Shown here: positions 7,466 through 64,000 of the stretch, one piece after another
Position numbering within the stretch: position 1 is the stretch's first letter
Layout: every line of letters starts with the position of its first letter
Assembly: GCF_003386095.1 (NCBI RefSeq)
Contig: NZ_QREG01000006.1
Location: 89,288 to 153,287 of the forward strand
DNA: 64,000 nucleotides
Reading direction: 5' to 3'
Source: Marinoscillum furvescens DSM 4134
GTDB taxonomy: Bacteria > Bacteroidota > Bacteroidia > Cytophagales > Cyclobacteriaceae
Program-made: the position numbers and the translations under genes
The notes under the pieces: model-generated
What the model saw: only the letters and a program-made list of their open reading frames with translations
Told to the model about the DNA's origin: nothing
Database searches by the model: none

Positions 7466-8992
7466 TTACTGTCCCCACTCCCCATCATCTGTCCGAAAAG
7501 GATATACCGGAAGTCCGTATTCATTGACCAGGTTAACCTTCGGCTTACCTGCAAAGGCATACCTTACATACTTAGGCGAGCCTATTTCAGTAGCAGATAA
7601 GACCACACGATTTCCTTCAATTTTTGCCTGGGCCTCTACCCAGTTCTTACTTTCATCAGCTATCCAAAAACCAGAAGGTTTTCTTCCATTGGTTGTTTTC
7701 AGCCTATTGGCATCATCAAAATAAACGACCAATTGCCCTTCACGCTGTTCTACTTTTTGCATCACCGGCCCATCAGCCGGCACTTTCAGGTTAAGCGCGC
7801 GTTTGGCTGCCAGCAATGCCCCACGCTGCCCAATCGGCAATTTATCAGCCGGGTGAATATCTAGCGCTTCACCCAGGTCAATGGTATTGATCAATGAAGT
7901 GTTGGGCAGCTCCAGCACTTTGCTTTGAGACTCCCTCATCCAGGCCCACGATGGCTCGGTAGGACTCTCTGGATCGATCTCCTTTTTCGCTTCTGTTCCT
8001 TTCCCAAAGCCAGGCAGCATCACCACCAGAAAATGCATTTGCTCATCAGCCCATCGCTGACGGTAGGTTTGCACCCATTTTTTGAGCACATCTCCATACT
8101 CTTCCATGCCACACACGCGGTGAAACCAGTTTTTTTCATCTACCTCCGGCATCCCCGACAGATAGCGGGTGTTGCGCTCGCCCTGACACCAAACCAGCCC
8201 CCTGTTGGCAAATGGAATCAGTGGATGCATCATGGCATTGTACAGAATATTGGGCTGGCGGCGTAAAAACACATCTTCCTTGCCCGTACGGCTTTTGCCT
8301 TTGGCAACGATTTCCTGCACCCTTTTGGCTGTAGCCGTGTCTGCATCAAACTCCTCCATAATGGTCTTAAAGTGCGGAACCTCCCCGGTCATGCTGCGTG
8401 GCATCCACGCCTCTATAGACGAACTTCCCCAGGCAGTAAGAACGATGCCCACGGGCACCTCCGCCAACTCCTGAAGGAAATAAGCAAACGAAAAGGCCAC
8501 TGCACTCGATGGATGAATCTCCTGCCACTGCCCGATCACTTTTTCCTGCTCCTGGAGACCAACCGTACGAGTCACCTCAAAAGTCCGGATGTTCTGGGCG
8601 TAGGGAATCAACCCTCGCACTTCGGGAGACTTATTCGCATTAAACTGCATATTGGACTGCCCGGAACAGATCCAAACCTCTCCCACCAATACATCAGAAA
8701 TGACCACTTCCTGCCTGCCTGAGACCACCAAATCCCTGCCTTCCAGGGATGCTTTCATAGGGCTCAACCGAACCATCCATCTACCGTCTTTTCCAGCTTT
8801 GGTCTTTAGCGTTTGTCCTGCAAAAGAAACCGTTACCTTCTCTCGAGGGGCTGATTTGCCCCAAACAGGAACTTCCTTTTCTCGCTGCAAGACCATGTGA
8901 TCGGTAAAAATAGATGCCACTTCAAGCTCCTGGCCCAGCGATGTGAATGCCAGAGCGAGCAAGATCACGTAACTTATCGTTTGTTTCATCAT
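7466..8992 (-). CDS. Sialate O-acetylesterase-like carbohydrate esterase
   Basis: Predicted periplasmic esterase that removes acetyl groups from sugars. Signal peptide 1-20. An N-terminal beta domain (about 25-105) precedes an SGNH-type SASA domain with the nucleophile motif CSGQSNMQ (Ser113). Further motifs are WCQGERN in the middle (the family usually has W-Y/H-QGE-S/A-N) and DIHPADK near residue 380, supplying the catalytic Asp/His. The C-terminal beta-sandwich ends at about residue 505. Its length of 508 is normal for the family. It is the last gene of the 28-gene run, 24 bases after the GH36 gene, and ends near a hairpin. In this setting it most likely de-acetylates the sulfated polysaccharide rather than sialic acid. 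Confidence 0.87.
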   Translation of the reverse strand: MMKQTISYVILLALAFTSLGQELEVASIFTDHMVLQREKEVPVWGKSAPREKVTVSFAGQTLKTKAGKDGRWMVRLSPMKASLEGRDLVVSGRQEVVISDVLVGEVWICSGQSNMQFNANKSPEVRGLIPYAQNIRTFEVTRTVGLQEQEKVIGQWQEIHPSSAVAFSFAYFLQELAEVPVGIVLTAWGSSSIEAWMPRSMTGEVPHFKTIMEEFDADTATAKRVQEIVAKGKSRTGKEDVFLRRQPNILYNAMMHPLIPFANRGLVWCQGERNTRYLSGMPEVDEKNWFHRVCGMEEYGDVLKKWVQTYRQRWADEQMHFLVVMLPGFGKGTEAKKEIDPESPTEPSWAWMRESQSKVLELPNTSLINTIDLGEALDIHPADKLPIGQRGALLAAKRALNLKVPADGPVMQKVEQREGQLVVYFDDANRLKTTNGRKPSGFWIADESKNWVEAQAKIEGNRVVLSATEIGSPKYVRYAFAGKPKVNLVNEYGLPVYPFRTDDGEWGQ

Positions 8993-9016
8993 TGGAGTAT
9001 TTTCTAAAATTATAAT

Positions 9017-11122
9017 CTATTGGGTAATGGTATAGCGCAATGCATCTACTGTGTCCAAAGGAGTGCCTTTCCAAAGTCCGTTACCCACCGCCTCAAAGGT
9101 CAGCTGCTCAGATACAGGCACTTTGTCCTTCGCCCAGATCAGCACCGGGCCTGCTTCTTCTACATCGATCACTACACGGTCCGCTGAGATGCTTTGTAGT
9201 GTATAGCTACTGGCTCCCAGGTATTTGTCTGCCCGCCCGATGATGGACCATCCTTTTTGTATAGGGCTCAGCTGCACCAGTTTTTCTTGTCGGGTGCCCA
9301 GGCTGAAAGTATATTCACCATTGAGCATTTGAGCTTTTTGCTCGAAGTAGTCATATAGCAGCAAACCTTCGGCTGGAATCTCCCATTTCCCTTCATAGGG
9401 CTGAAGCATGCCTGAGGCATGGGTGTAGTCCTCAACCATAAAGCTGGCTTGCACTTCTGTATCGCGATTGAGGTTAAAAGCCAGGATAACTGCCGACTGA
9501 TTTTTCAGCGGGGCAATAACCCGAAAAGCCTCACCTCCTGTATAAGGATCCTGCATCAGCGTTTCCGGTAGCGGTACTGCCGGGGCAAGTGTGCCTAAAA
9601 GCCTACCATCTTCATACATCAATGGTTTCAGGTAAGTATCATCGATGTTTTTGGTTTCGTCAGAGAGGTACACAGGCCCACCCGATACAGCCCGCGCCAC
9701 TGCCATGAGTCGGGCCGTTTCCTTAAAACTGGTATGAAACATGTCCTGATCGGTCCAGTGCACATGCCCCAGCCAAAGCGCATTGGTGAAATTTTGCGCA
9801 AGGGTAAGGTCTACCCGATCCAGGTCGTTTTTATAATCTACACTCGAGCGAATCACCGAAGAGTAGGTCTGATGAAAAACGTTGAAATTTTGCATGGCTA
9901 TGCAATTGATCATGTGGAGGCCCTTCGCCTTTACCTGCTCCTCTAGTGCTTTTTGGTTTTGATATACCGCTCTTATGGCATTGGATTTTCCGCTGTTGTA
10001 TCGCCAGTTGTCCGACTGAAAATCCACCTTGATGATATCAAAGCCATTGTCATAAGTATCATTGATCATTTTTTCATAAAACTGATCCGAAGCAGCTTGT
10101 GATACTTTAGTGGTGAGTAGAGATCTTTTCCGTGACTGCCACATACTCTCTTCCAGCTGAGGTGCCAGCTCGGTCATGGTATGATCGGGAGATATTCCGC
10201 CCATGTAGCCATTGAAATTCCTCCAGATACCGAGCCATTTCACTTTGTCATCTTTCAGTTGGGTGATCGGCCCCCAGCCATTGGGAAATTTCTTTTCATC
10301 CACACCGAAAGAAAGCAGCTGCCCTTTATGCTGATGTAGATAGCCATCGTCCACCATCACCCAGCGGATGGGCAAATCACTTTGCTGAATATCTTTAATG
10401 GAGTTGGCAATGATGTCCTCATTGATTTTTTGTCTAAAATGCTCCCATGAGCACCAGCCCAGGTATTGGAAAGGTTCCGGGAAAGTTTTGTCACTTCGCC
10501 AGTTGATCTGACCTGCCAAAACGGGATGACTTTTGGCCAGCTCCCATACCCGACGTGTCGCTGCATAGGGACTTTCATCTTCGGCATACGCCAAAAGCGG
10601 GATTTCGATATCCACCGTATCTGTCCCGTAAGTAGCCGTTTGAAGGTAAAAAGCGCTATCCTTCACCGAAAAGGTGTTGCCCACCTCCTTAGATACCAGC
10701 GGCATCACTGCCAAAAACTGACCATTGGTTTTTCTCAGTAGCATAAACGCCCCGAACTGCATATTGTCATCCTCACGAGGCCTCTTGAGCTCATAGTTTT
10801 GTAGCTCCGCAGGGCTGCTAAACCACAGCGCCTCCATTCGATTGCCAGAGGCCACTCGATCAGAAAACGGACGGTAGTACATCCCTTTTTCGTAAGCGGG
10901 AAGCTTAATGGGAATTGTCGCGATCACCCCAACAGAGTCGGGAGTAAATTCCTGCTTGTTAATGGAAAAAATGCCTTCTCTGGAAACCTCGTTCACCGCC
11001 AATAGCGAAGGAATTTGATCAAAGTTCCCAACTTCATTTGCTTGTAAGGCCTGCTCTTTTTTTACTTCACAGGCAAGCAAGAATGCTGTGAGTAAGGTGA
11101 TGAAGTGAACGTATTTTCTCAT
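9017..11122 (-). CDS. GH36-type (Sip1/raffinose synthase-like) alpha-galactosidase lipoprotein
   Basis: Predicted retaining alpha-galactosidase of the Sip1/raffinose-synthase branch of GH36. The ATG at 11122 (MRKYVHF) gives a clean lipoprotein signal (lipobox LLAC, Cys18). A longer frame from 11197 would overlap the sulfatase and lose the signal. Landmarks are LGWCSWEHF and WVMVDDGYLH at the start of the barrel, then IIKVDFQ with the nucleophile Asp (residue 367 from this start). The segment SVDYKND is in the region of the acid/base. It lies 50 bases after a sulfatase and 24 bases before the esterase, so it is an integral part of the locus. It implies alpha-linked galactose in the substrate; specificity is an inference. 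Confidence 0.85.
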   Translation of the reverse strand: MRKYVHFITLLTAFLLACEVKKEQALQANEVGNFDQIPSLLAVNEVSREGIFSINKQEFTPDSVGVIATIPIKLPAYEKGMYYRPFSDRVASGNRMEALWFSSPAELQNYELKRPREDDNMQFGAFMLLRKTNGQFLAVMPLVSKEVGNTFSVKDSAFYLQTATYGTDTVDIEIPLLAYAEDESPYAATRRVWELAKSHPVLAGQINWRSDKTFPEPFQYLGWCSWEHFRQKINEDIIANSIKDIQQSDLPIRWVMVDDGYLHQHKGQLLSFGVDEKKFPNGWGPITQLKDDKVKWLGIWRNFNGYMGGISPDHTMTELAPQLEESMWQSRKRSLLTTKVSQAASDQFYEKMINDTYDNGFDIIKVDFQSDNWRYNSGKSNAIRAVYQNQKALEEQVKAKGLHMINCIAMQNFNVFHQTYSSVIRSSVDYKNDLDRVDLTLAQNFTNALWLGHVHWTDQDMFHTSFKETARLMAVARAVSGGPVYLSDETKNIDDTYLKPLMYEDGRLLGTLAPAVPLPETLMQDPYTGGEAFRVIAPLKNQSAVILAFNLNRDTEVQASFMVEDYTHASGMLQPYEGKWEIPAEGLLLYDYFEQKAQMLNGEYTFSLGTRQEKLVQLSPIQKGWSIIGRADKYLGASSYTLQSISADRVVIDVEEAGPVLIWAKDKVPVSEQLTFEAVGNGLWKGTPLDTVDALRYTITQ

Positions 11123-11172
11123 TGTAAATTCGGTTTTTCTCTTTTTGTTGAGCAATAACATCATTCGGAGTT

Positions 11173-12675
11173 CTAGTTCGGAGCTCCACTCTTCCAAAGT
11201 GTGATTTCTTCTAAGTCGTTATCTGATAAAATGCCTCGCCTGGTGTGCCCCATGGCTATATCTGACTTCAGGTCCTTCAGTAGTTTGTCTACCACTTCCG
11301 GCCTGGATTCAAACAGGTTTTTCGTCTCTCCAGGATCAGCATAGAGGTCGTAAAGCTGTGCTGCTGGCGCGTCTTCTGGCATGTCTTTCTCACGAGGTGC
11401 TGTCCACCCTCCCGAACCTTTGGCCAACAAGAGTTTCCACTTGCCCTGACGATACGCAAAATGCCCGCTGATCGAATGGTGGATAACACCTTTCCTTTCC
11501 GACTCAATTGGCTTTCCGTAAAGCGCTGGCAAGAAACTAAAACTATCCTCAGCCCCGGTGGCGGGAAGCTCCGTCTGCGTGATATCAGCCACGGTAGCAA
11601 AAAGATCGGTAAGGCAAATCAATTCATCAGACACTGATCCAGCCTGCACTTTTCCGGGCCAACTCACAATGAAAGGCACTCTGTGACCACCGTCCCAAAG
11701 GTCGGCCTTCGATCCGCGCATGTGTGCGCTGACCAAATGGCCCTGCTGGGCCAGCTCCGGGATGCCGGCAGCTTTTGAGCAGCCATTGTCACTGGTAAAA
11801 ATGATCAGCGTGTTTTCATCCAGCCCGTTGGCTTCCAGCGCCTTCACCACCTCACCGATTACGTTATCCGTTTCCATCACAAAATCACCGTACTTACCCA
11901 ACCCGCTTTTGCCTTGCCACGCAGCTGATGGCACAATCGGTGTATGGGGTGATCCCAAAGGCAAATACAAGAAAAATGGCGTGTCTTTGTCTTTAGCCCG
12001 TTCGTGGATATAAGCTACTGACTTCCGCGTGAGTGTTGGGAGCATGTTGATCTCCGGCTCATGGCTGATCACCCGGGTGTTTTCGATCACCTCTTGCATG
12101 CTCCCGGCATGGTGAAACCCATAGTAATAATCAAACCCACGCGTCAAAGGGCCATCCAGTATCTCTGTTCCAACCGGTGCTTTAAACGGTTTCCTTTTTG
12201 GTTTTTCCAAAAACTGGCCGGTCTCAGGATCCTGGTATTGAAAATTAAGGTGCCACTTGCCAAGGATTGCGGTATGATAACCGAGCTCCTTTAGGTGACT
12301 GGCCACTGTGGCTCTCTCGGGCGCGATCAGGTTGTCTGCATAGCCCTGCACCACGCCTCTCTGTAGCCTGGTTCGCCAGCTGTAACGACCCGTCAGCACA
12401 CCATAACGCGTGGGTGTGCATACGGATGAGCCGGAGTGTGCATCTGTAAAAACCATCCCAGCGCCGGCTAACTGGTCTGCGTGTGGCGTAGAAATCCTGG
12501 AAGTCTCAGGAGCCAGCGCATGCACATCGCCATAGCCCAGGTCATCACAAATGATGTAAATGATATTAGGGTGACGGGGGGAGTCACACGAAACGAATGC
12601 TAGACTCAGGATAAGCAATACAACATTGAGTGTAAATACCTGCAAATAATTGATCTTCACCTTCGTTGGTAGCAT
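11173..12675 (-). CDS. Sulfatase S1 family, lipoprotein (CTPTR)
   Basis: Formylglycine-dependent sulfatase with a lipoprotein signal (lipobox FVSC, Cys30). Metal-binding DD at 44-45, maturation motif CTPTR with Cys86 as the residue converted to formylglycine, GKWHLN in the middle, FTSDNGCS, and the usual C-terminal sheet domain (GKWKLLLAKGSGGW). Length 500 is normal. The start ATG abuts the GH116 stop codon (TAAATG), indicating tight coupling. It is closely related to the sulfatase at 39837-41399 (shared SSVCTPTRYG, ILTGRY-type and KGSGGW/PGSGGW motifs), an in-locus duplication. The sulfate position it attacks cannot be read from sequence. Confidence 0.93.
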   Translation of the reverse strand: MLPTKVKINYLQVFTLNVVLLILSLAFVSCDSPRHPNIIYIICDDLGYGDVHALAPETSRISTPHADQLAGAGMVFTDAHSGSSVCTPTRYGVLTGRYSWRTRLQRGVVQGYADNLIAPERATVASHLKELGYHTAILGKWHLNFQYQDPETGQFLEKPKRKPFKAPVGTEILDGPLTRGFDYYYGFHHAGSMQEVIENTRVISHEPEINMLPTLTRKSVAYIHERAKDKDTPFFLYLPLGSPHTPIVPSAAWQGKSGLGKYGDFVMETDNVIGEVVKALEANGLDENTLIIFTSDNGCSKAAGIPELAQQGHLVSAHMRGSKADLWDGGHRVPFIVSWPGKVQAGSVSDELICLTDLFATVADITQTELPATGAEDSFSFLPALYGKPIESERKGVIHHSISGHFAYRQGKWKLLLAKGSGGWTAPREKDMPEDAPAAQLYDLYADPGETKNLFESRPEVVDKLLKDLKSDIAMGHTRRGILSDNDLEEITLWKSGAPN

Positions 12676-15240
12676 TTATCCTTTTTTAATGGTGAAAGTC
12701 ACCGGTTCATCCTGATTGAAGGCCTTTGCCTTTTTAAATCTCACCGTGCCAAACCCGTCCAGTTCGAAGGACTTCAGATTCATTTTGCCATTGAGTAGGG
12801 AAAGCGTAACCTCTTTTTTGGAATCCTTTCCAGCTATTTTCACTGTTCCGAATTGATAGCCATTGGACCAGAAGTACGTGCCCGGCTCGGAAGTAATCGA
12901 CATGGACTTGTCTACGGCCGAATAATGGAATTTTGTAGTAGCCAGCACGGCTCCCCATGCCATCATGCTGCGGGCGTAGTGATTCCCATACTCTGCTTCA
13001 TTAAATGGGTTTCGCTTGTGGCCATCATAGCGATCTCGAATATCCGAAATGGTTTTGAGTCCGGCTTCCGTTTGGTCTTCATAAAGCATACCCACCGCTG
13101 CGGTATGCTCAAATCCGGTCATTACTTCCGTAAAATAAGGGAAAGGCTGCTTCGGTCGCTCTTTGGGGTAAGCTGCCATGAGTAGCGCTGATTCATCGCC
13201 ATAGGCATAGGAGCGCATGAAATTTGGATGCTTTGTCAAGCTTTCACGGTAGTTGTACTTCAGAATAGCTTCGTTGGTCTTTGCTATGTGAGATTCCTCA
13301 GCCAAATAGCCCAAATCAAGGATATGAGCCATCACCTGCCCTACCAGCTGATCTACCAACACCCCTTCTCCGAGCTGATACTGCGGATCATCTGGAACCA
13401 GCCTTCTTTTCACCCGAATCAGTCCATCGGCGATACTGTCCAGCGACATGGGAGGCACGATTTGCTGGATGTAATATTCTCCATTGAACAAATTTTCATC
13501 CATCCATGCCGACCCACTTTCATACAGTGACCGGCAAGTATTGGCAAATGATTCGTCTCCGAGGTAGCGGGACATCTCTTCACAGGCTCTGAGCGCACCG
13601 AGGTACCAAAAGCCCATCTGTGGATTGGGTCCGTAGTACTCTACGTCCATGGTGTTGTGCTGGGCACCTTCCATGATACCATCTTTGTCCGGGTCCCAGC
13701 CGTTTTTGATCCAGCAAAACTCCAGCGCCCGTTTTACTTTGCCCCAGTTTTGTTTCAGAAAATCATCATCACCCGAAAGCTGCCACTCTCTGTAGTACTG
13801 CATAATACTGCCGGTCTGCCCATCAGCAGCACCCAGTTTAAAACTGGTTCCCTTGGTAGCCAATGGCAAATCGATGCGGTAGTTCATCATGCCCCGGTCA
13901 TCCAGTGCATAACCAAACTCTACCTCGCGCATATTTTTAGCTACTTCCCCGAAGAGGAAAGGAACGGTTTGTTCGTAGTTCCAAACGTGTGTACAGGTAC
14001 CAGTCCCACTCCCCCGGTCATCTCTGGTTCCTTCCCAACCATGATAGTATCCAAACTTCGTTTTGAAAAAGAGCTGAGTGCGCAAATGCGCCAGGTTAAA
14101 CAGTGCCGCTTCTTTGACTACCTGAGGAATGTCACTATTCACAAAAGCATTGACGAAAGAAGTGGTCTGCTGCTCCAATTCGGGAAGTCTCGGAATCACC
14201 TGACGGGCCACATCCCATGAGTCTTCAAATCTGGTCGTGTAGTAGTTGCCCACGTTTCCTTTATTGGTCCAGTTGGGACGGTTAGGGAAATGCCAGGTCA
14301 GGTAAAAGCGAAACGTTTTTTCTTCATTGGCTTCCAGGGTGGTTTTTAGGGCCAGTGAGCCCATTGGCCGGTCACTATTCGATGTTCGGTCACCGAGCAT
14401 GCCATCATCGGTAAAATCATCCCAAAACTCCACAGTGCTGTTACCCCATTCTCCCGGCTTCCAGTCCGTGCGATAAGAAAACTCCCCCTCAGCATCAGTA
14501 GTCAGGCTAAAGGTGCCCCACTGCATGCTCTTCTGATCTACGCTATCCGAAACAAAGTGAATCCCTCTGATTCCGTCTTCTTCTCGATAGATATTCCTAT
14601 TGCTTTTCGCCTTTCCTTCTACCCCATCTTCTCCAATAAAATTGGGAATGTTTCCTACCAATGAAATGGTTAGTGGCTTGTTGCTCACGTTTTTGACCTT
14701 GTAAGTAAGAATAGCGATGGGCAGGCTACTATCGTCCACATTTCCCGGGATGAGCGGATTGAACGCTTCCACACTAACGGCTACCGGAACCTCCTCGTCT
14801 TTTAGGTTTACCCGTCCGAAAGGATAGGCGGTCTCAAAAATTGCTTCATCGAATCTCGGCAAACCGTGATTGGCAGCTGTGGAGCCATAATAGCCTTCGT
14901 CATAACGCACAGGTATCGGGCCTTCCATGGCCAGGGCCTGTCCTGCTTTGTTTTCCTCTTTGAAGTATATCGCAAAAAAAGGTGCACGCTTCAAGACACC
15001 TAGACCCATTTGTGGATTATACCCTTTGGCCGGGCGGCTCATGATCTCCCAGTCCTCAATGGCACCACGCCCCGTAAGAGAAACCGTACCCGTACCAATC
15101 CCTCCAATCGGCATGGCAATCCGATCAAGGTGCTCCCGGTCATAGGTTTTCAGGACCGGCCAATTTTCTGACTGTTGGCCATACAGCAGCTGCGAAAGAG
15201 TAAAAAGAGAACAAAATGTTATGATCGATTTCAACTTCAT
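12676..15240 (-). CDS. GH116 glycosidase (copy A)
   Basis: GH116 enzyme (beta-glucosidase, beta-xylosidase or N-acetylglucosaminidase in known members). Signal peptide 1-21. A GBA2-type N-terminal domain (about 40-330, opening MPIGGIGTGT) is followed by the (alpha/alpha)6 catalytic domain. By alignment with GBA2-type enzymes, the nucleophile is Glu403 in GWEG and the acid/base Asp532 in HNTMDVEYYGPN. Length 854 is normal. It starts 2 bases after a sulfatase and runs directly into another. A second copy at 32471-35077 shares most motifs, and both follow a sulfatase of the same type. The sugar removed is unknown; in marine loci GH116 often accompanies fucoidan-type substrates. Confidence 0.88.
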   Translation of the reverse strand: MKLKSIITFCSLFTLSQLLYGQQSENWPVLKTYDREHLDRIAMPIGGIGTGTVSLTGRGAIEDWEIMSRPAKGYNPQMGLGVLKRAPFFAIYFKEENKAGQALAMEGPIPVRYDEGYYGSTAANHGLPRFDEAIFETAYPFGRVNLKDEEVPVAVSVEAFNPLIPGNVDDSSLPIAILTYKVKNVSNKPLTISLVGNIPNFIGEDGVEGKAKSNRNIYREEDGIRGIHFVSDSVDQKSMQWGTFSLTTDAEGEFSYRTDWKPGEWGNSTVEFWDDFTDDGMLGDRTSNSDRPMGSLALKTTLEANEEKTFRFYLTWHFPNRPNWTNKGNVGNYYTTRFEDSWDVARQVIPRLPELEQQTTSFVNAFVNSDIPQVVKEAALFNLAHLRTQLFFKTKFGYYHGWEGTRDDRGSGTGTCTHVWNYEQTVPFLFGEVAKNMREVEFGYALDDRGMMNYRIDLPLATKGTSFKLGAADGQTGSIMQYYREWQLSGDDDFLKQNWGKVKRALEFCWIKNGWDPDKDGIMEGAQHNTMDVEYYGPNPQMGFWYLGALRACEEMSRYLGDESFANTCRSLYESGSAWMDENLFNGEYYIQQIVPPMSLDSIADGLIRVKRRLVPDDPQYQLGEGVLVDQLVGQVMAHILDLGYLAEESHIAKTNEAILKYNYRESLTKHPNFMRSYAYGDESALLMAAYPKERPKQPFPYFTEVMTGFEHTAAVGMLYEDQTEAGLKTISDIRDRYDGHKRNPFNEAEYGNHYARSMMAWGAVLATTKFHYSAVDKSMSITSEPGTYFWSNGYQFGTVKIAGKDSKKEVTLSLLNGKMNLKSFELDGFGTVRFKKAKAFNQDEPVTFTIKKG

Positions 15241-15242
15241 CT

Positions 15243-16658
15243 TTATTTTAAAGTAAGAGGCCTGGGACTATCCACCACCCCAACAGGTCGTGCGTTTGCA
15301 GTGATTTCTTTGTCAAATTTTTGCATGGCGGCTTTGAGCTGCGTCACAATTTCTGGATGCTGATCGGCAAGGTTTTGCGTTTCAGAAGTATCCGATTTCA
15401 GGTTGTACAGCGCTTCCTTGCCATTTACTATTCTAAGTTTCCAATCTTTCCAGCGTACGGCTTCCAGTGTTCCCCAATGCGAATAGAAAAAATACTCGTG
15501 AGGACTTGACTCCCCTGCCGTGAGAACTGGGAAAATATCCTTCCCGTCGATGATCCGATCATTGGGCACCTCAGCGCCCATGAGACCTGCAAAAGTGGGC
15601 AGCAAGTCCATTGCGGTGATCAGTTCATCGGTATCACTTCCGGCCTTGATGCCCTTGGGCCAGCGAATCACCGTGGGCATACGCATACCACCTTCCAGGG
15701 TACTTCCTTTGCCACCTGATAAGGGACGAAGCGAATTTTTTCTATGCCGGCCAGCTCCATTATCACTGGTGAAAAGCACGATGGTATTTTCATCAATGCC
15801 ATGCTTTTTGAGAGCCGAAAGGATTTGACCTACCGACCAGTCAATCTCATGAATAGCCGTCTCGTATATTTTTGATGAGGCCTCTACCCCATTGGCGAGG
15901 GCTTCAGCATAAGCTTTTTTGATTTCCGCGGAAGCCGCCACCGGACCATGAGGTATAGGATGTGGCACGTACAAAAAAAAGTTTTCGTCTTGATGCTCCT
16001 CGATAAACTGTACTGCTCGTTCGGTTATCCTTCGCGTGAGGTAATCCGCATCAGGATCCAATTCAATCACTTCCTCGCCTTCCAGCAACGGCAATGGAGG
16101 GAAATTGAAGTACTCCTGTCTTTTGTGTCTGGGCATGATATCATGGCTATAAGGAAGCCCAAAGAATTCATCAAACCCCTGGCGGGTAGGTAAAAACTCC
16201 GGTTGATCTCCCAAATGCCATTTCCCAAACATCCCGGTTCGGTAACCAGCAGATTTTGCAATCTCGGCGATGGTAATTTCGTCTGGATGCAGCCCATGGC
16301 CATCTGCTGCGAGACAAACTGGAAAACGCTTGCCTTCCGGGACATGGGGCAAAGCCACCACCCTGCTTGAGGGCGGCTCCATGCTGACGCGTCTGGGATA
16401 ACACCCCGTCATCAGCGCTGCTCGTGAAGGAGTACACAGGGGTGCGGCTACATAAAAACTCGTCAGTCGAGCTCCTTCCTTTGCCATTTGGTCTATGTGG
16501 GGAGTGTAGACGTGATCGCCACCAAAGCAACCAAGGTCTGCATAGCCCTGATCATCTGTGAAGATGATGACGATGTTGGGGCGGTCTTCTTTCGGCGTAC
16601 AACCCGCATTTACTACGAAAGAAACAATGATTAAAAAAGCAATTCTGACATATTTCAT
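15243..16658 (-). CDS. Sulfatase S1 family, lipoprotein (CTPSR)
   Basis: Formylglycine sulfatase with lipobox NAGC (Cys20), FTDDQGYADLGCFG at 33-46, maturation motif CTPSR (Cys75), GKWHLGD, FTSDNGAGR and the C-terminal sequence WRDWK-like EAVRWKDWKLR. Length 471. It lies 7 bases after one sulfatase and 2 bases before GH116 copy A. It resembles the sulfatase at 35107-36534, which likewise precedes GH116 copy B, sharing FTDDQGY, LTSFY and PSRAALMTG. This suggests that the sulfatase-GH116 pair was duplicated as a unit. Confidence 0.93.
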   Translation of the reverse strand: MKYVRIAFLIIVSFVVNAGCTPKEDRPNIVIIFTDDQGYADLGCFGGDHVYTPHIDQMAKEGARLTSFYVAAPLCTPSRAALMTGCYPRRVSMEPPSSRVVALPHVPEGKRFPVCLAADGHGLHPDEITIAEIAKSAGYRTGMFGKWHLGDQPEFLPTRQGFDEFFGLPYSHDIMPRHKRQEYFNFPPLPLLEGEEVIELDPDADYLTRRITERAVQFIEEHQDENFFLYVPHPIPHGPVAASAEIKKAYAEALANGVEASSKIYETAIHEIDWSVGQILSALKKHGIDENTIVLFTSDNGAGRHRKNSLRPLSGGKGSTLEGGMRMPTVIRWPKGIKAGSDTDELITAMDLLPTFAGLMGAEVPNDRIIDGKDIFPVLTAGESSPHEYFFYSHWGTLEAVRWKDWKLRIVNGKEALYNLKSDTSETQNLADQHPEIVTQLKAAMQKFDKEITANARPVGVVDSPRPLTLK

Positions 16659-56600: not shown

Positions 56601-56662
56601 GCATATCCCAACAACGCCATGAAGGCTAAAAGAAAATATAAGTTTAGTGCCTTTAACTGCAT
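53633..56662 (-). CDS. susC: SusC/RagA TonB-dependent outer-membrane transporter
   Basis: TonB-dependent oligosaccharide importer of 1009 residues. Signal peptide 1-21, carboxypeptidase-regulatory-like domain at about 27-105 (GTITDFDGNFSL, FVGYTPQ), TonB-contact/plug start at DEVVVTGYG, plug domain with the SusC-typical LYVVDGVVVN and IEIMKDASVASLYGSRAANGVV, then a 22-strand barrel ending in LYLIGVDFNL with a terminal aromatic-rich strand. No N-terminal signalling extension is present, consistent with regulation by the hybrid two-component system instead of an anti-sigma factor. It is the first gene of the 28-gene run; a hairpin terminator lies just 26 bases upstream of its ATG. Confidence 0.96.
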   Translation of the reverse strand: MQLKALNLYFLLAFMALLGYAQDAESYTLKGKIIDPDINEGLPGATIMVEGTTTGTITDFDGNFSLTVKSNDVLNVTFVGYTPQSIPVNGRSDIEVILQPDVTALDEVVVTGYGEISKSDLTGAVSSVDIDEIKNVAVSDVSQALQGRIAGVQVTPNSGSPGAGTAIRIRGVGTITGDASPLYVVDGVVVNEINYLSQNDIKSIEIMKDASVASLYGSRAANGVVVIQTKQGSAGDVKINVTSQYGLQNLWNEPDLMNTSEFFQLKGLANGGSPEVMGNLLTNLETAEDNDWLDLITRTGTRQQHSLSFSGGTERMTYRLSSNFFNEKGIVINSDFTRINVLSDLTFDITDNINLRANVLYSNAKRNVQDTESKYSLFRRVVIDSPDKELVDEDGFLNNTPLLKAKDNVDERGIHNLQTKFFFNYKISPELKFTSRFGMDQNRVDRHQFSKPGTAVEQTLSPNSFAAVTETSTLTNKVLWEQVLSFNKKISGNNLSLTGAFSMERQEKQNVVAKGSSPLGRDESTAYLSNAFRSLNVNGATTAWSQMGVVFRSNYSIQGKYVFQANLRSDGSSRFAKGNRWGFFPSASAAWVFSEDLLPGNAVLQNGKLRVSYGVLGNNRINNYESVTTLGNGSVYAYGADDNFNYYTGYAATEIGNSDISWERTYSYNLGVDLDLYGHVFLTTDVFRRHTKDMLLNVPVPQSIGFSSTPRRNIGEVINDGIELSASYRNSIGDLSIDLSANGTYLINNVLELGVNNDPVYGGYVNNAIPVVMGNVTKTVVGRPIGTFYGRVTDGLDENGNFIFKDLNNDGKITLDDRTYLGSPIPNVTYGGVINLGYRNFDFVAQLQGVHGNSVFNVLRYHTHGFNGTRGLSSILDDVWTTDLNFEGSEVPADIANKYQGGNQNPTLPRAMSANNDESYRHASDFYVEDASYLRVKNVQLGYTFDDRVLSRLQLRSLRLYVSAQNLLTFTKYEGFDPEVGGGGGIAAGIDYGSYPQGRLYLIGVDFNL

Positions 56663-56744: not shown

Positions 56745-59324
56745 TTATTTGATGATCAGCTTGCTATGTCCAAGAATCTCACCTGCTACATTACGTGTAG
56801 ACACTGAATAAATACCTTTTTCCAGATGCTGTACAGGCAGTGAGTTCACACCTTCTGTAAGCTCTGTCTGAAGTACTGTTCTGCCAGCCATATCAATCAA
56901 AGAGATCATGACCACTTCATTTCTATCGTTACTGATATTTACAAACCCACTTGTCACAGGGTTTGGATACACGATCATGCCTTTGGCCAATTCATTGGAA
57001 AGTACCAGCTTTTCGTAGATTACGGTTCGTGTCTCGGACTCACTAGACGCGCCCTGAATATCAGTAGCTACTGCTTTGATCACTGCAGTGCCTTCCACTG
57101 TGAGGCCATCCCACTCAAATCCAAAAGGTGCTTCTTCGTCTTTGAAAAGCAGCTCATCTCCGTTGTAGAACTCTACTACCAGGCCGTCCAACTCGTCACT
57201 TGCTGTAGCAGCAATCTCCACAGATTCACCAATCAACAAAGTGGTATTGTCATTTGGAAGAGTCATCTCTACCGATGGAGGCGTATTTCCTATCACCAGT
57301 ACATCTATAGGCATAGAGAATGAAGAGTCGTTGGCATCATAAGCCACAGCCGTGATGCGTGTAGGCTCCCCTTCTGCACCTGCAGGTATATTTTCCCAGT
57401 TGAAGGTAAACTCACCCTCGGTAGCTACTCCTACCTGTACCCAGGAGTTGTAGTAGTCTCCAGTATAGTATTCTACCTTAGAGATGGCATCACCTTCTGC
57501 ATCGTTGAGTGCCACAGCCAGGGGCACAGTAGCTCCTTCTATCAGTGTAGCACCGTTTTCAGGACTGGTAAAAGACGCCATAGGTGCAGCATTCAAATGT
57601 GCATTGGCACCAATCTCTACCGCAGGCCCTACTGCTTTAGGGTCCTGATATTCGCCGGTTTTTTCAAGCCCGTCATCAAATACGGCAAGGGTACCTGAAA
57701 TTGTTCTGAAAATCAGGTTTCCGTTAAGTTCTCTCAAATCGGTAGGCAACACTCTGTTGAACCCATCTACATCGTCAAAAACTTTATAAATCAGGTATTC
57801 AGACTTTTTAGACAAGTTGTCCAATTCAGGCACCTGAGGATCTTTACCATCACCTACCACGTCCAATGCCCAGATATCATAGCTACTTTGGTTGTTTCCA
57901 GTATTGGCTGTGAAATACATTCTGCCATTTACCACTGTTTTGTTTCTAGGGAATGAGCTGGTACCTGCTCCAGGAAAAACATCTGCAACCAACTCTACAC
58001 TATCTGTTTCCGGATTGTACATACCCAGTTCTTGTCCAGATCGTGGGTTGGTATTTTCAGCTCTCGAGCCAAAATTCACTTTAAAAAAGAGTTTTCCATC
58101 AAAAACGAAAAAGTCATCTGGAAACGACTGACGCTCCTGCGTATCAAATGGAGCAATGTCAAAGGCCATTTCAAGCTCATCGCCAGTGCCTTTCAGGCCA
58201 TTCATTCGCATCAATTCCGTACCCTTACCTGCATTTCCTCGGTAGTATACCTTACCATCAAATACGATTGGGTTAGCACTTCCCGAATTTGCTGTGGTAT
58301 TTGCCTCCGACCCAGGGGCATCAGCAGCATCCTGAAGCAGGTAGGTACCTTTCGTAGTACCGTCAGTTACCCAGTACTCGTTATCGAGCGTTGTAAGCTC
58401 AGGCTTGCCCGCCCATTTGCCAGGCGTTTTAGCTCTGAAAATTACTTGTTTCTCATTCACCGCCAGTATCCACTGGATGTTGGAGTTGTCAGTAGGAGGG
58501 TTGATATCCACGAGCATTTTAGTACCCCATGGCTCAGGAGTACCATTGGTCACCCAAATTTCTTCTCCCACGATGAGCTCTGTCTCTCCATCCATTCCAA
58601 CTACACGATCAGAAGTTCCTCCAAAAATGGCAAGTGTATCACCAATCACCTGAATTGGGCTGTAGGTTTCTTCTCCGTCGAGACCTGTAGTCTTGGGCTG
58701 CACCCCTTCTTTGTTATCCGCAGACATTCTCTTGGTGCCTTCTGGCGTACCATTAGAAAACCACAAGTGCTGTCTGGTCTTACCATCTCCATAATCTGAC
58801 GAGCTTGCATCCACTGCTGCGAAAAGGAATCCATTTTTAAATGGTGTAATCGCACTAGGTTCAGAACTAGCAGCTCCTTCGTTGAGGTCTATGAGCAGCG
58901 ATGTACCTGCTTCTGTACCATCGGTTACCCAAAGCTCTGTACCTTCCGCTTCGGTGGTAGCAGTAAAGTATACTGACCCTCCCACTCCTACAAGGTTTGC
59001 AGGAAGTGAGCTCGCTGCTCCAGGATTGATGTCTTTTACCATTTTAGTTCCCTCACGTGTACCGTCAGTTACCCAAAGCTCATCGCCAGTAGCGTCATTA
59101 TGAGCGGTAAAGTAGTACTTACCACCATAAGAAATGGCCTGACGTCCGCTGTAGTTTTTGGCTCCACCACGACGACCATCACTGGTCACCGAATCAGCTG
59201 TAGAAGTCAAAGCTGTAAGTGTTCCATACTCAGCAGATATGCTCTGCAGGTTTTCATACTCTTGTGCCACACTCTCAGCCAGCGCCAGGAGTGTAATCAG
59301 GCAAAATGTAAATAGGTGTTTCAT
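56745..59324 (-). CDS. ELWxxDGT-repeat surface protein with Ig domains and T9SS tail
   Basis: Secreted protein of 859 residues, signal peptide 1-20. The first half holds five or six ELWxxDGT repeats (ELWVTDGTREGTK, ELWVTDGTEAGTS, HLWFSNGTPEGTK, EIWVTNGT, EYWVTDGTTKGT), which are expected to build a beta-propeller. Ig-like Big_9 modules follow (about 590-770, ASFTSPENGATL and VEMTLPNDNTTL), then a T9SS sorting domain (VYPNPVTSGF, GIYSV). No catalytic residues can be assigned. It lies between the regulator and SusC on the same strand, preceded by a 199-base leader region and followed by its own terminator. It is likely a surface glycan-binding or adhesion protein expressed with the locus. The Ig modules resemble those of the protein at 1-1433. 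Confidence 0.85.
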   Translation of the reverse strand: MKHLFTFCLITLLALAESVAQEYENLQSISAEYGTLTALTSTADSVTSDGRRGGAKNYSGRQAISYGGKYYFTAHNDATGDELWVTDGTREGTKMVKDINPGAASSLPANLVGVGGSVYFTATTEAEGTELWVTDGTEAGTSLLIDLNEGAASSEPSAITPFKNGFLFAAVDASSSDYGDGKTRQHLWFSNGTPEGTKRMSADNKEGVQPKTTGLDGEETYSPIQVIGDTLAIFGGTSDRVVGMDGETELIVGEEIWVTNGTPEPWGTKMLVDINPPTDNSNIQWILAVNEKQVIFRAKTPGKWAGKPELTTLDNEYWVTDGTTKGTYLLQDAADAPGSEANTTANSGSANPIVFDGKVYYRGNAGKGTELMRMNGLKGTGDELEMAFDIAPFDTQERQSFPDDFFVFDGKLFFKVNFGSRAENTNPRSGQELGMYNPETDSVELVADVFPGAGTSSFPRNKTVVNGRMYFTANTGNNQSSYDIWALDVVGDGKDPQVPELDNLSKKSEYLIYKVFDDVDGFNRVLPTDLRELNGNLIFRTISGTLAVFDDGLEKTGEYQDPKAVGPAVEIGANAHLNAAPMASFTSPENGATLIEGATVPLAVALNDAEGDAISKVEYYTGDYYNSWVQVGVATEGEFTFNWENIPAGAEGEPTRITAVAYDANDSSFSMPIDVLVIGNTPPSVEMTLPNDNTTLLIGESVEIAATASDELDGLVVEFYNGDELLFKDEEAPFGFEWDGLTVEGTAVIKAVATDIQGASSESETRTVIYEKLVLSNELAKGMIVYPNPVTSGFVNISNDRNEVVMISLIDMAGRTVLQTELTEGVNSLPVQHLEKGIYSVSTRNVAGEILGHSKLIIK

Positions 59325-59523: not shown

Positions 59524-62500
59524 TTATAATAATCTTTTGGGTGCATCCATTTTCACATCCGATGGCAGACGGTTAAACTCCTTCTTGAAAATGCTTCGGA
59601 AATATTTCACATCATTGAAGCCTACAAAGAAGGCTGCCTCACTCACATTCATCTTACCACTGGAAATGAGCTCTTCGGCTTTCTTCAACTTCAGCTTTCT
59701 GATAAACTCATTGATCGATAGCCCTGTGACGGATTTGAGCTTACGATACAGCGATGCCCGGCTAAAGCCTAGTTCACGAGCCAGCTCATATACACCTATG
59801 TCTTTTCCGGTTTCCAGGCGCTCTTTGAAGATGACTTCCTCAATTTTTTGTAGAAATTCCATCTCCACCTGCACGCGAGAGTCTTCTTTCTTTTGGTCTT
59901 CGCTGGTCTCAGCTTCCTCACTATCAGCTTGTCCCAAAAAGTAAGACTTGAGCACTACCCGGCTTTTGAGCAAGTTATCAACCCTTGAAAGCAGCAGTTC
60001 CTCGTCGAATGGCTTCACCATGTAACTATCTGCCCCTTCTGAATAACCCAATATAGTATCTTCGGTAGAGTGCTTGGCAGTAAGCAGAATAATCGGGATA
60101 TGACTTGTCCTGGAGTCATTTTTCAATGCCTTGCACAGGTCTATGCCTGTTTTTACCGGCATCATCACATCCGAAACAATAAGGTCTGGAATCTCCTCCA
60201 TGGCTAGTGCGATACCTTTTTCCCCATTGGTGGCTACATACACTACATATTTGTTTTCCAGCACTTGCTTGAGGTAGCTGACGATATCTTCATTGTCATC
60301 TACGATGAGCAGGCGTTCACGCTTATCATTCGGATCTACTACCTGATCAGATAGTTCGTCAGTTTCCTGAGTAGCAGGGTATTCTGGTATTTCCAGCGTA
60401 AGCGGGCGCTGCTCCACAAACTCCATCTGCCCGAGATGCTCTTTCCCTTTGGGTAATGAAAAGTAAAAATCAGCGCCTTCATTTTTGAGGTTACGAACCT
60501 TGATCACACCTCCATGAAGTTCCACGATTTTTTTCGTGAGTGCCAGACCTATACCTGTTCCTGACACACTTTTGGAATCGTAGGCCTGGTAGTACCACTG
60601 AAAAATCGTCTTGATAGAATCCTTTGGTATCCCCGGTCCCGTGTCTTTGACTGAAACGGTCACCTGATCTGATGCTTCGGTAAGTGAAACGGTAATGCGT
60701 CCACCAGTGGGGGTGTATTTAAAGGCATTAGAAAACAGGTTATTCATGACGATTTCGAGCTTTTCGGCATCCACCCATAGCGCCAGTTCCTGATCGGGCT
60801 TTTCAAATAAGAGGGTGACGTTTCTAAACTTGGCCAAATCACGGTAATTGCTGATAATCGAGTCCAGCACTTCTACAATATCGTACTTACTCACCTGCAA
60901 CTTGAAATTCCCAACTTCGGCTTTCCTAAACTCCAGCATCTTGTTGATCAGGTTACTCAGTGAAAGTGCATTGCGCTGTATCAGCTTGAGACCTTCTCTC
61001 ACCTCATCATCCTTAGCCCGGATGATCAGGCTTTTGAGCGGCCCAATAATCAATGTAAGTGGTGTACGCAGCTCATGCGAAAAGTTGGTAAAAAACCTGA
61101 TGCGCTCCTGATTGAGCTTATGCTCCTGAAAGCGAATTTTCTTTTCATACACCAGCGAACTTCTCAGCTGAATTTGTGAAGTATAATACCAGACAAAGAG
61201 CAGCAGCAGACCAAGTCCTACAATTATGTAAAGGATTATGGCCGTTTTGGTTTGCCATATAGGTGGCTCGATAACCAACTCTACACGCTTTACATCTACT
61301 TTGGAGCCATCCATGGTCTTAGCGATACGAAAAGTATATTCTCCAGGACTTAGGTTGCCATAAGTGATGGCGTCCGCTCCACGTGCCACGTTCCACTGCT
61401 GATCACTGCCCTCTAAAGTGTAATGAAGCATTTGCTTGGCAGCCACGGGATAGTTGAGAGTTTCAAACTCAAACGTAAGTACGTTGTGATCATATGGCAG
61501 TACTACAGGCCCCTGAGCAAATAAAGGAGATTTTCGACCTTCCAGGTCGGTAATGGAGTTACCCAATATGAGGATGTCGGTAAGCAGTGGCTTTTGATTG
61601 GTGGTATTGGCTTTTAGGTTTTCCGTATCTACAATATTTAGTCCACGCGTACCCCCGAAGGCTAACCGGCCGTTTGGGAGCCTGGCCACAGACCCCACAT
61701 TAAACTCGCCTTTTTGTACATTATAGGACGAGCCAAAATTTTGAAAAAGCTTATCGGTTACATTAAAAACGCTAATCCCTCTATCCGTAGCTATCCACAG
61801 CTCACCCGCTTCATCAAACTCCAATGCTCGAATACTATTATTGATTAGACCTTCATTTTCATCGTAGATCACATAAGTGGAATCGAGGGTATTAAACTTC
61901 ACCAGCCCATTATACCTTGTGCCGATGTAGAGATGGTCTCCCCATAGCCTGATACTGGATATCTTGTTGCCCTTAAACTCTCGAATGATGTTGGCATCTA
62001 TTTTAGTAAACTCACGGTTTTCTGGATGGTAATAGAAAAAGGTCTCACTATAGCCAGAAATCCAATAGCCACCGTTCTGATCTTCACATATCGATCGGAC
62101 ATCCATGCCTCTAAACTCATCTATGGAAAAGAAGCGTTCAAAAACTGCATCATAAATCTGCAACCCTCCTCCATTGGTACCAATAAACAATCTTCCTCTG
62201 GAGTCTTCAAAAATCAACCTTACGTCATTCCTGTTAATGGTGTTTCGGTGCTCCTTATTTCGCTGATAAACACGTCTGGCACCTGTTTTCAGGTTTAGGC
62301 GGATTAAGCCTTCTTTGTATGTACCGACCCAAAGCACATCATCGGCCGTTTGGTGTATAGAGAGCACCGCCAGATCATCCGACATCCCAAACCTGCTTAA
62401 CACCCCTCGTTGCACCTCGCCAGTTTTGATATTGAGGCTATTGAGACCACCGCCATCTGTGCCTATCCAGAGTATATCATCTGCGTAATCCAGCCCCCAG

Positions 62501-63588
62501 ACACGCTGATGACTAAAGTGAACTTTAGCCCGTGGGTTACCGTCTATGAGTCGAATAGAAGCCCTTTTTGGACCTACGTAATTTATACCTGAACTCCACG
62601 TACCCATCCATATAGCTCCCTCTTCATCTTCGAAAAAAGTCTGAATGGTTTTACTAAATACACTGGACCCGTCTGAGCGTGGAGTGTAATAATCAAACTG
62701 CAGATCCGGGCCAAAGTCTTCCACAGGGGTTTTACTAATCGCAAGGCCTTCTTCACGAGTACCTATCCACAAGTGTCCCTCTTTGTCCAAATACGAAGCT
62801 ACTATGTCCGTTTCATTCAGGTAGGCATTGTCAGTTGGTTCAAATTGTCGCTTTTCAGCATCAAAAACATACAAACCAAGATTAGTGCCCAGCGTAAGTC
62901 GATTGAGGTAGCAGCTTGGCTTGTTTAACACAATATCGTCTCCGATAAAAATGCGTTCTGTGGTTCTGTCGTTAAGATGGTGTATGAGCAAATGTCCTCC
63001 GTGCTGCACCACACAGACCGATGTATCTCCCATGTAGGAGATATACATCGCATTCGAGGAGCCAGTTCGCTCGGGCTTGTAATAATTGTAGGATTCCCCG
63101 TCGTAGACCAGAAGTGCACTATTGCTAAATGCTACAGCTACATCTCCTTTACTGTTTTGGGTGATTGCCACGCTGGCATGACTGAGCTTCACTCCTGCTA
63201 TGGAATCCAGCCGCGAAAACCTCATGGTTTCCAGATCCAAAATTTCCAACCCCAAACTGGTACTTATCCAAATGCGATTGCTATTGGCTTCATACAATAC
63301 ATCGTTGAGGTTGTTGCTGATGATCGAGTTGGGATCATTGATATCATGCCGAAAGACTTTAAACTCATTGCCACCATACCTGCACAGTCCATCTGCTGTA
63401 GCCACCCACATAAATCCGATGGAATCCTGAGCAAATCCATATACCAGGTTATTAGAAAGCCCGTCTTCTACATTGATATTGGTGAATGATTTATTAAAAG
63501 CATCGAACAACTCCTGTGCTGCACCCAAACGAGGCAGCATTGTGGAGCAAATAAGTATTATCCAAAAACAACGTCTCACTTCTATCAA
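59524..63588 (-). CDS. Hybrid two-component system regulator (HTCS)
   Basis: One-polypeptide sensor-regulator of 1354 residues that controls PULs in Bacteroidota. Periplasmic part: signal peptide, then two seven-bladed propellers of Reg_prop repeats (about 35-690, words such as LWIGTDGGGL) and a Y_Y_Y domain to about 775. One membrane helix at about 780-802. Cytoplasmic part: HisKA with FSHELRTPL (His838), HATPase with NNLFSNAFKY at 949-958 and DTGPGIP at 982-988, receiver at 1091-1205 (Asp1140 in SDVMMP, Lys1192), and AraC-type HTH at about 1250-1347. No ATG suits the signal peptide; the start is probably the TTG at 63588. It lies 30 bases after a sulfatase stop and ends before a weak hairpin. 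Confidence 0.95.
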   Translation of the reverse strand: MIEVRRCFWIILICSTMLPRLGAAQELFDAFNKSFTNINVEDGLSNNLVYGFAQDSIGFMWVATADGLCRYGGNEFKVFRHDINDPNSIISNNLNDVLYEANSNRIWISTSLGLEILDLETMRFSRLDSIAGVKLSHASVAITQNSKGDVAVAFSNSALLVYDGESYNYYKPERTGSSNAMYISYMGDTSVCVVQHGGHLLIHHLNDRTTERIFIGDDIVLNKPSCYLNRLTLGTNLGLYVFDAEKRQFEPTDNAYLNETDIVASYLDKEGHLWIGTREEGLAISKTPVEDFGPDLQFDYYTPRSDGSSVFSKTIQTFFEDEEGAIWMGTWSSGINYVGPKRASIRLIDGNPRAKVHFSHQRVWGLDYADDILWIGTDGGGLNSLNIKTGEVQRGVLSRFGMSDDLAVLSIHQTADDVLWVGTYKEGLIRLNLKTGARRVYQRNKEHRNTINRNDVRLIFEDSRGRLFIGTNGGGLQIYDAVFERFFSIDEFRGMDVRSICEDQNGGYWISGYSETFFYYHPENREFTKIDANIIREFKGNKISSIRLWGDHLYIGTRYNGLVKFNTLDSTYVIYDENEGLINNSIRALEFDEAGELWIATDRGISVFNVTDKLFQNFGSSYNVQKGEFNVGSVARLPNGRLAFGGTRGLNIVDTENLKANTTNQKPLLTDILILGNSITDLEGRKSPLFAQGPVVLPYDHNVLTFEFETLNYPVAAKQMLHYTLEGSDQQWNVARGADAITYGNLSPGEYTFRIAKTMDGSKVDVKRVELVIEPPIWQTKTAIILYIIVGLGLLLLFVWYYTSQIQLRSSLVYEKKIRFQEHKLNQERIRFFTNFSHELRTPLTLIIGPLKSLIIRAKDDEVREGLKLIQRNALSLSNLINKMLEFRKAEVGNFKLQVSKYDIVEVLDSIISNYRDLAKFRNVTLLFEKPDQELALWVDAEKLEIVMNNLFSNAFKYTPTGGRITVSLTEASDQVTVSVKDTGPGIPKDSIKTIFQWYYQAYDSKSVSGTGIGLALTKKIVELHGGVIKVRNLKNEGADFYFSLPKGKEHLGQMEFVEQRPLTLEIPEYPATQETDELSDQVVDPNDKRERLLIVDDNEDIVSYLKQVLENKYVVYVATNGEKGIALAMEEIPDLIVSDVMMPVKTGIDLCKALKNDSRTSHIPIILLTAKHSTEDTILGYSEGADSYMVKPFDEELLLSRVDNLLKSRVVLKSYFLGQADSEEAETSEDQKKEDSRVQVEMEFLQKIEEVIFKERLETGKDIGVYELARELGFSRASLYRKLKSVTGLSINEFIRKLKLKKAEELISSGKMNVSEAAFFVGFNDVKYFRSIFKKEFNRLPSDVKMDAPKRLL

Positions 63589-63618
63589 TCTAAACAGCCA
63601 TTAAACTCTTGCCACACA

Positions 63619-64000
63619 TTATTTCTTGCTTTTTTCCAGTTTCACCAGTGGAAACTCTGGATGCTCGGATCTGGCACGTGCAAGCAACTCCTTCAATTCT
63701 TTGGCTCGCTCATGCTGCTCCTGATATACATTTTGCTCCTCGGCAGGATCCTTTTCGATATGATAAAGCTCATAATGTGATCCCACAAAATACAACAATT
63801 TCCAGTCACCCTTCATGATCGCCTGTATGGGCCCTTTACGTTCATTAAACTCCCAATACAAATAATCATGATTTTTTTGCCTGAGCCCTCGCAGTGCATT
63901 CAAATAGGAAATGCCGTCAGTCGGTGCTGAGGGAGTTACGTTTGCTATGTCACAAGCTGTAGGCAGAAAATCCCAAAACGCCGACGGGTGGTCAGATGTA
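63619..64000 (-). CDS. Sulfatase S1 family, C-terminal part (truncated by window edge)
   Basis: The frame is open to base 64000, so the N-terminus with the maturation motif is outside the window. The visible 126 residues are the sulfatase C-terminal region: SAFWDFLPTACDIANV, then APTDGISYLNALRG, HDYLYWEFNERKG, MKGDWKLLYF and HIEKDPAEEQNV, all typical of the S1 family and most like the sulfatase at 48968-50479. It lies 30 bases upstream of the regulator gene, so the locus continues beyond the window. Confidence 0.9.
   Translation of the reverse strand, partial: TSDHPSAFWDFLPTACDIANVTPSAPTDGISYLNALRGLRQKNHDYLYWEFNERKGPIQAIMKGDWKLLYFVGSHYELYHIEKDPAEEQNVYQEQHERAKELKELLARARSEHPEFPLVKLEKSKK

Follow-up and report, generated by a model that had tools for sequence, protein, structure and literature searches.

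The window analysed here, a stretch of 64,000 nucleotides from Marinoscillum furvescens DSM 4134 (contig NZ_QREG01000006.1, positions 89,288 to 153,287; G000:C6:89288-153287 in own-genome coordinates, G000 being the host genome and G, C and L labelling genomes, contigs and sequence stretches), carries on its minus strand a large cluster of sulfatase and glycosidase genes. This is probably a polysaccharide utilization locus (PUL) for a heavily sulfated and acylated polysaccharide with L-fucose, possibly L-galactose, and galactose. The most likely substrate is a fucose-containing sulfated polysaccharide (FCSP) of brown algae or diatoms, of the galactofucan or fucogalactan type. By its gene content the cluster looks like a large example of an FCSP PUL, and we put forward the exact polymer as a proposal. 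Loci of this kind are already known: what is new is a gene set that recurs in other bacteria, together with two uncharacterised proteins, one resembling glycoside hydrolases (GH) of clan GH-A, the other belonging to DUF6786.

Layout of the locus

From position 7466 to the right edge of the window, open reading frame (ORF) calls and Pfam reproduce the 31 minus-strand genes of a preliminary description made from the sequence alone. Twenty-eight of them form a near gap-free run from susC (53633-56662) down to 7466, with intergenic gaps of -28 to +33 bp, bar two of 178 bp (41424-41601) and 129 bp (45637-45765). The run opens with an adjoining susC/susD pair (53633-56662 and 51939-53627, Pfam), holds 25 co-directional enzyme genes and is linked to a regulator (59524-63588). 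The sulfatases are again 11 complete S1 enzymes and a partial twelfth, the remainder of which lies beyond the window edge. The glycosidases are also as claimed (GH29, GH95, GH2, a GH36-type enzyme, GH97, two GH116, GH172, two GH43/GH117-like and one unassigned GH-A-like protein, by Pfam, with the labels qualified below), and so are two esterases, of SASA and GDSL type. Four genes had gone unmentioned: those of the DUF6786 protein, of a family-less lipoprotein after susD, of a protein with ELWxxDGT repeats and a tail of the type IX secretion system (T9SS), and of the hybrid two-component regulator.

C-x-P-x-R, the formylglycine motif, is found in all 11 complete S1 sulfatases. The host genome has 67 PF00884 matches, 66 of them above cut-off; were these evenly spread, 0.49 sulfatases would be expected in the 44.5 kb between 7466 and 51935 that hold 11, a crude null, as the genome has other sulfatase clusters.

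A gene set that recurs in sister loci

A species-genome scan with the GH-A-like protein (41602-44172) yielded 21 loci. The genomes of 18 of these were searched with a GH117-like protein, and 11 of the 18, picked by their GH117-like matches, were extended into what we call the sister loci, among others in Mariniflexile fucanivorans, Flavobacterium algicola, Flavobacterium sp. UMI-01, Wenyingzhuangia sp. 2_MG-2023, Carboxylicivirga sp. and Flavivirga jejuensis. With orthology defined as a reciprocal best hit at an identity of at least 50%, one or more of the 11 loci supplied an ortholog for 23 of the 25 enzyme genes (21 of 23 when the two locus-picking genes are left aside). As a control, three further sulfatase-rich clusters of the host were compared in the same way, and none of their 78 ORFs had one. 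Fisher's test gives about 1e-19 to 1e-20, a value to be read with the fact that genes within one locus are not independent. Chance clustering was rejected as an explanation, given the excess of sulfatases over expectation and these control clusters.

Orthologs are most widespread for GH97 and the GH117-like gene at 23031 (10 of the 11 loci each), followed by the sulfatase at 35107 and DUF6786 (seven each), the sulfatases at 19816 and 15243 and the GH116 gene at 12676 (six each), then GH36 and the GH116 gene at 32471 (four each); GH172 has one at this identity in Carboxylicivirga only. GH2, the sulfatase at 11173 and the ELWxxDGT protein have no ortholog of at least 50% identity in the 11 loci, and the same is true of SusC, SusD, the surface lipoprotein and the regulator. 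Identity rises to 79%, and gene order is shuffled from locus to locus, with small blocks kept. In 7 of the 21 loci the GH-A-like gene is directly followed by a match of the sulfatase at 39837 and then by GH97; in the window the sulfatases at 39837 and 38441, then GH97, come after it. A match of the sulfatase at 48968 stands directly upstream in 7 of the 21, not so in the window, where the sulfatase at 44185 precedes the GH-A-like gene. The sister loci have much of the enzyme set in another order, and the host's susCD pair, regulator and surface lipoprotein differ from theirs.

The coordinates of the preliminary description stop short on the right, where the locus is longer. In the right flank 7 of 42 ORFs have sister-locus orthologs (C6:153001-C6:185492), the last of which ends about 32 kb beyond the window edge. 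The flank first encodes the main part of the twelfth sulfatase, then a GH29, a secreted protein whose GH59 match falls just short of the cut-off, a T9SS protein of 1726 residues and another GH2; farther out come a protein of 1736 residues with a BD-FAE esterase domain, another GH29 and a sulfatase. Besides the GH29 of the window, three GH29 matches fall within 40 kb to its right. Sister loci and right flank together comprise 415 ORFs, 183 of them (10 in the host) without a window counterpart; Pfam was run on 19 sister-locus and 10 host flank proteins. Five of the 11 sister loci encode T9SS-secreted proteins in which a GH128-type (Glyco_hydro_cc) domain occurs (L042:5909-8077 and homologs), often in tandem near the GH-A-like gene; none was seen in the window or its right flank.

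These data invite a tentative reading, which we hold to be possible rather than likely: an undescribed conserved pathway for one galactose-containing FCSP, with a core made of GH97, the GH117-like enzyme, DUF6786, the two GH116, GH36 and the recurring S1 sulfatases, plus the GH-A-like protein (in 8 of the 11 loci), reshuffled among Flavobacteriia, Carboxylicivirga and the Cytophagales host. The GH-A-like protein might then found a new GH family, and DUF6786 might be a new enzyme or accessory protein of the pathway. Against this stand the location of the GH-A-like gene outside 3 of the 11 loci and the link to fucoidan already made for GH36, GH116 and GH117 (PMC9865893, in the passage on these families). 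No published function of the sister loci was found in the open-licence literature. The set recurring in 11 loci helps to separate core chemistry from passenger genes, and provides a shortlist for assays: DUF6786, the GH-A-like enzyme, the GH117-like pair, GH97, GH36, GH116 and the recurring sulfatases.

Which polysaccharide?

Several published systems, cited here from the passages that deal with such loci, resemble the cluster. FCSP PULs predicted in North Sea Flavobacteriia combine GH29 and/or GH95 with GH117, GH2, GH97 and sulfatases, as here, with a mean of 38 genes (Kappelmann et al., PMC6298971; sulfatases are marked in the legend of its Fig. 5). They also have GH43/30/39/120 xylosidases, GH3 and GH31, whereas GH116, GH36, GH172, DUF6786 and a GH-A-like protein are not named in the main-text account of FCSP PULs in that paper. 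A mixed ulvan/fucoidan PUL of Maribacter dokdonensis 62-1 holds GH29, GH95, GH97, GH117, GH141 and sulfatases (PMC8072126); unlike the window, where none of the four was seen, it has PL33, PL40, GH28 and GH141 as additional families. In Verrucomicrobiota, GH36, GH116 and GH117, all of unknown function, stand beside GH29, GH95 and GH168 as fucoidan-related families (PMC9865893). With its many sulfatases this list shares GH29, GH95, GH36, GH116 and GH117 with our locus, and the passage supports an FCSP as target; it differs in phylum, in covering a whole genome rather than one locus, and in including GH168. The fucoidan cluster of Wenyingzhuangia fucanilytica CZ1127 (PMC6315715, PMC10778895, PMC12786026) likewise has GH29, GH95 and several sulfatases; it contains endo-fucanases of GH107 and GH168 and four GH141, a family absent from the host contig. 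In Zobellia galactanivorans, brown algae elicit a response from a predicted FCSP PUL that includes a GH117 (PMC9296495). More generally, FCSPs break down slowly and are under discussion as a store of carbon, and no function is assigned to many genes of their PULs (PMC12786026).

The traits common to such PULs are found here: GH29 together with GH95, S1 sulfatases bearing their motif in 11 cases out of 11, and GH117-like genes with GH2 and GH97. The earlier view of a sulfated, acylated algal target with fucose and galactose is kept as the best reading, and its 'galactofucan-type fucoidan' becomes one candidate among several. Its further statement that the gene combination was undescribed is mostly mistaken for the kind of locus, FCSP PULs having been published; of the exact locus no description was found in the open-licence literature.

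Evidence for fucose comes from the sister loci and from the catabolic genes. A profile built from 10 secreted homologs of seven sister loci holds a fucolectin-like domain (FBP32, E 5.7e-27), and in 5 of the 21 loci the GH-A-like gene is directly preceded by a gene for such a secreted homolog. All 12 of 12 genomes have a transporter of the fucP family above cut-off, and 9 of the 12 also have Fucose_iso_C. The isomerase lies 9.8 kb from the nearest ortholog in G011 (F. algicola) and 10.1 kb in G017 (Mariniflexile AS56). A rough probability of 0.011 for such positions was given no weight, as the limit of 10 kb was set after the positions were known, with G017 just outside it. In the host the isomerase adjoins a fucP-type gene away from the locus, in a region of C3 (G000:C3:92276-98541) where a sulfatase and a GH141-type match are also close by; this is probably a second fucose locus of the host.

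If an FCSP is indeed the substrate, a route may be sketched in which the order of action and the individual specificities are, like the polymer, what the gene content suggests. T9SS enzymes encoded to the right of the window would carry out an extracellular first step, cutting the polymer and removing acyl groups. Oligosaccharides would then be imported by the surface lipoprotein, SusD and SusC, and sensed by the hybrid two-component regulator. About a dozen sulfatases of the cell envelope and the exo-glycosidases (GH29, GH95, GH117-like, GH2, GH36, GH97, GH116, GH172) would alternate in removing sulfate and sugars, and freed fucose would enter via the FucP-type carrier for isomerization by FucI; the genes of both lie in other parts of the genome. 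A T9SS-tail match is found in none of the 25 run enzymes, and a simple pattern for a lipobox-like motif matches 15 of them, which is why many are probably enzymes of the cell envelope. Among the secreted proteins of the host, the one at L030:1655-3172 has a GH59 match of 26.9 bits, against a Pfam cut-off of 27. The modelled catalytic part of the F. algicola homolog of another secreted host protein gives loose GH30/GH164-like matches (TMq 0.46-0.58). One secreted host protein compared with the PDB gave a single chance-level match (E 0.14).

A number of facts weigh against this interpretation. The fucolectin-like domain is seen in the profile of sister proteins, with which the host homolog shares 37-44% identity. 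G004, G016 and G018 carry a sister locus and yet have no Fucose_iso_C above cut-off, which weakens the case for fucose. GH141, although present in the sister loci of G009 and G014, is missing from the host contig, its four matches being on C2, C3 and C10. SusC, SusD, the regulator and the surface lipoprotein are not conserved in the 11 sister loci, and these loci were themselves chosen for a GH-A-like or a GH117-like gene. Three predicted FCSP PULs of Zobellia responded to macroalgae, not to extracted FCSP (PMC9296495, in the passage on these PULs). Finally, the closest solved structure to GH29 is an exo-alpha-L-galactosidase (7ljj, E 7.2e-67), and the closest to the GH117-like protein are 3,6-anhydro-L-galactosidases (3p2n, E 1.7e-37), both of which point to red-algal galactans.

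Three other targets have to be weighed. These last matches would suit an agaran-type galactan of red algae (porphyran, funoran or a branched agaran), from which GH29 and GH95 would take L-galactose, the GH117-like enzymes 3,6-anhydro-L-galactose, and GH2 and GH116 beta-D-galactose. The GH117-like protein keeps the RRDPS and GHE stretches of 3p2n, a kappa-carrageenan S1_16 enzyme is among the nearest structures of one sulfatase, and the three genomes without isomerase fit as well. L-galactose and L-fucose, though, differ only at C6, so that the names of the nearest structures do not settle the case of GH29. Agar and porphyran PULs are alike in having GH117-like, GH2 and L-galactosidase-type GH29 enzymes; unlike them, the core locus has no GH16 in any of 12 genomes, the nearest (G003, M. 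fucanivorans, C3:238592) being some 9 kb outside the core, past another susCD. G004, G007, G014, G015 and G016 do have GH16 genes at other sites, at most about 10 kb away from further members of the GH117 family; these members are about 32-41% identical to the locus copy, and the five genomes therefore seem to own a separate agar locus. With the fucose isomerase of G011 and G017 at some 10 kb from the locus, and the fucolectin-like domain of the sister profile, we consider an agaran an unlikely substrate.

Equally improbable, to our mind, is another sulfated galactan or arabinogalactan, of green algae, diatoms or animals, in which fucose would be minor and GH172, GH97, GH36 and the GH43-like enzymes would strip arabinose or galactose branches. 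The presence of GH172, GH97, GH36, GH2 and two GH116 is what such a polymer would ask for, and the near-cut-off GH59 and the GH30/GH164-like model are compatible with endo-action on a beta-galactan; yet GH172 has its ortholog in just 1 of 11 sister loci, the sister profile has the fucolectin-like domain, F. algicola is a fucoidan degrader (PMC12786026, in the passage on this species) and M. fucanivorans is one by name. A pure sulfated fucan, for which the galactosidase families would have fucan-related or unrelated activities, seems to us still harder to uphold. GH29 and GH95 with many sulfatases are the usual signature of fucan use (PMC12786026, PMC6315715, in excerpt), and the Verrucomicrobiota list places GH36, GH116 and GH117 among fucoidan-degrading families. 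The run nevertheless has four galactose/glucose-type families (five genes), among which GH97, GH36 and the GH116 genes at 32471 and 12676 are conserved in 10, 4, 4 and 6 of the 11 sister loci, and GH141 is not on the host contig. We thus keep to a galactose-containing FCSP.

Two uncharacterised proteins

The GH-A-like protein (41602-44172, minus strand), which also has FN3 domains, finds no catalytic-domain match in Pfam or NCBIfam, and its best hit in a PDB profile search has an E-value of 0.41. Its model (pLDDT 84.6) forms a TIM barrel, and two acidic residues are conserved, the first directly after an asparagine: N166-E167 and E288 (within T287-E288-F289-G290) are invariant in 22 sequences. 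By modelled fold and conserved residues the protein fits clan GH-A, with E167 and E288 as putative catalytic residues. Among the 50 fold matches listed, mostly to FN3, GH79 beta-glucuronidases come best once FN3-type hits are disregarded (TMt 0.60-0.62, TMq 0.34-0.35, rmsd 8-9). Membership of GH79 was rejected, the best beta-glucuronidase match having E 0.013 (phmmer) and 0.81 (profile): only the fold is alike. The protein may already have a CAZy number.

Its gene has reciprocal best hits at 45-53% identity in 8 of the 11 sister loci, of which only that of Carboxylicivirga reaches at least 50%. In M. fucanivorans, Wenyingzhuangia and Flavivirga jejuensis it lies on another contig, the stretch compared there being the one around the GH117-like gene. 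Among relatives of the host, a search with the full alignment matched 42 of 59 genomes, a figure inflated by FN3; full length was seen in the host and G031 only. G031, which belongs to the same family, is thus the one carrier among 58 relatives, and the five congeneric genomes have no full-length copy. The catalytic part matches 2 of 296 Bacteroidota genomes, one being the host itself (1 of 295 others). The distribution of the gene is rare and patchy. As for DUF6786 (31209-32465, minus strand; PF20583, E 5e-164), no mention of it or of PF20583 was found in the open-licence literature.

The individual genes

All genes of the cluster are on the minus strand and are described from the right edge leftwards. 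The C-terminal part of the twelfth sulfatase (63619-64000) matches NCBIfam arylsulfatase models below cut-off, and its remainder is the PF00884 protein in L030. The hybrid two-component regulator follows (59524-63588), with propeller sensor, HisKA, HATPase, receiver and AraC helix-turn-helix domains by Pfam, then the secreted ELWxxDGT-repeat protein with Ig domains and a T9SS tail (56745-59324; NCBIfam TIGR04534, E 2.6e-59). At the head of the run, the TonB-dependent SusC-like transporter (53633-56662) has Pfam plug, barrel and CarbopepD_reg domains, and the SusD-like lipoprotein (51939-53627) matches SusD_RagB and SusD-like_3. The next protein (50487-51935) has no Pfam or NCBIfam match; a lipobox-like motif and its place after susD suggest a surface glycan-binding lipoprotein.

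The 11 complete S1 sulfatases, called by Pfam, lie at 48968-50506, 44185-45636, 39837-41423, 38441-39832, 35107-36567 (whose nearest structures are mammalian sulfatases, besides the carrageenan enzyme already named), 26425-27954, 21440-23026, 19816-21408, 16666-18111, 15243-16658 and 11173-12675. Between them come a LacZ-type GH2 (45766-48957), GH97 (36540-38444) and the first GH116 (32471-35110), which reaches its 79% identity in Mariniflexile fucanivorans. Below DUF6786 lie a protein with Pfam GH43/GH32 matches that we would label GH117-like (30232-31212), the GDSL esterase (29580-30239), GH29 (27967-29583) and GH95 (24067-26391), whose best structures are 7kmq and 4ufc. The other GH117-like protein (23031-24053), compared above with the 3,6-anhydro-alpha-L-galactosidase 3p2n, owes its 10 orthologs partly to the choice of loci; it draws common matches in the sister loci with the protein at 30232. 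The remaining genes encode a DUF2961 protein (18116-19819; PF11175), which we take to be GH172, the second GH116 (12676-15240), the GH36-type enzyme (9017-11197; Raffinose_syn; 7exf, E 1.3e-26) and, as last gene of the run, the SASA-type carbohydrate esterase (7466-8992). The GH36-type gene was called from a TTG; its true start is probably an internal ATG.

Surroundings of the locus

A foreign composition of the locus was considered and rejected, its GC and GC3 being close to those of other stretches of the genome. The Bacteroidota-type promoter consensus has 1 match there, against 1.72 expected. Elsewhere in the host genome, which has 16 GH29 matches in total, the three other sulfatase-rich clusters lie at L069-L071 (C20), L072-L074 (C16) and L075-L077 (C10). 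Two neighbouring genes on the plus strand (window 1-3255 and L032:18884-19999) encode PL7-type alginate lyases with T9SS tails, and represent a separate alginate function beside the locus; the lyase at 1-3255, whose start seems to lie left of the window, carries Ig and ricin-type lectin domains.

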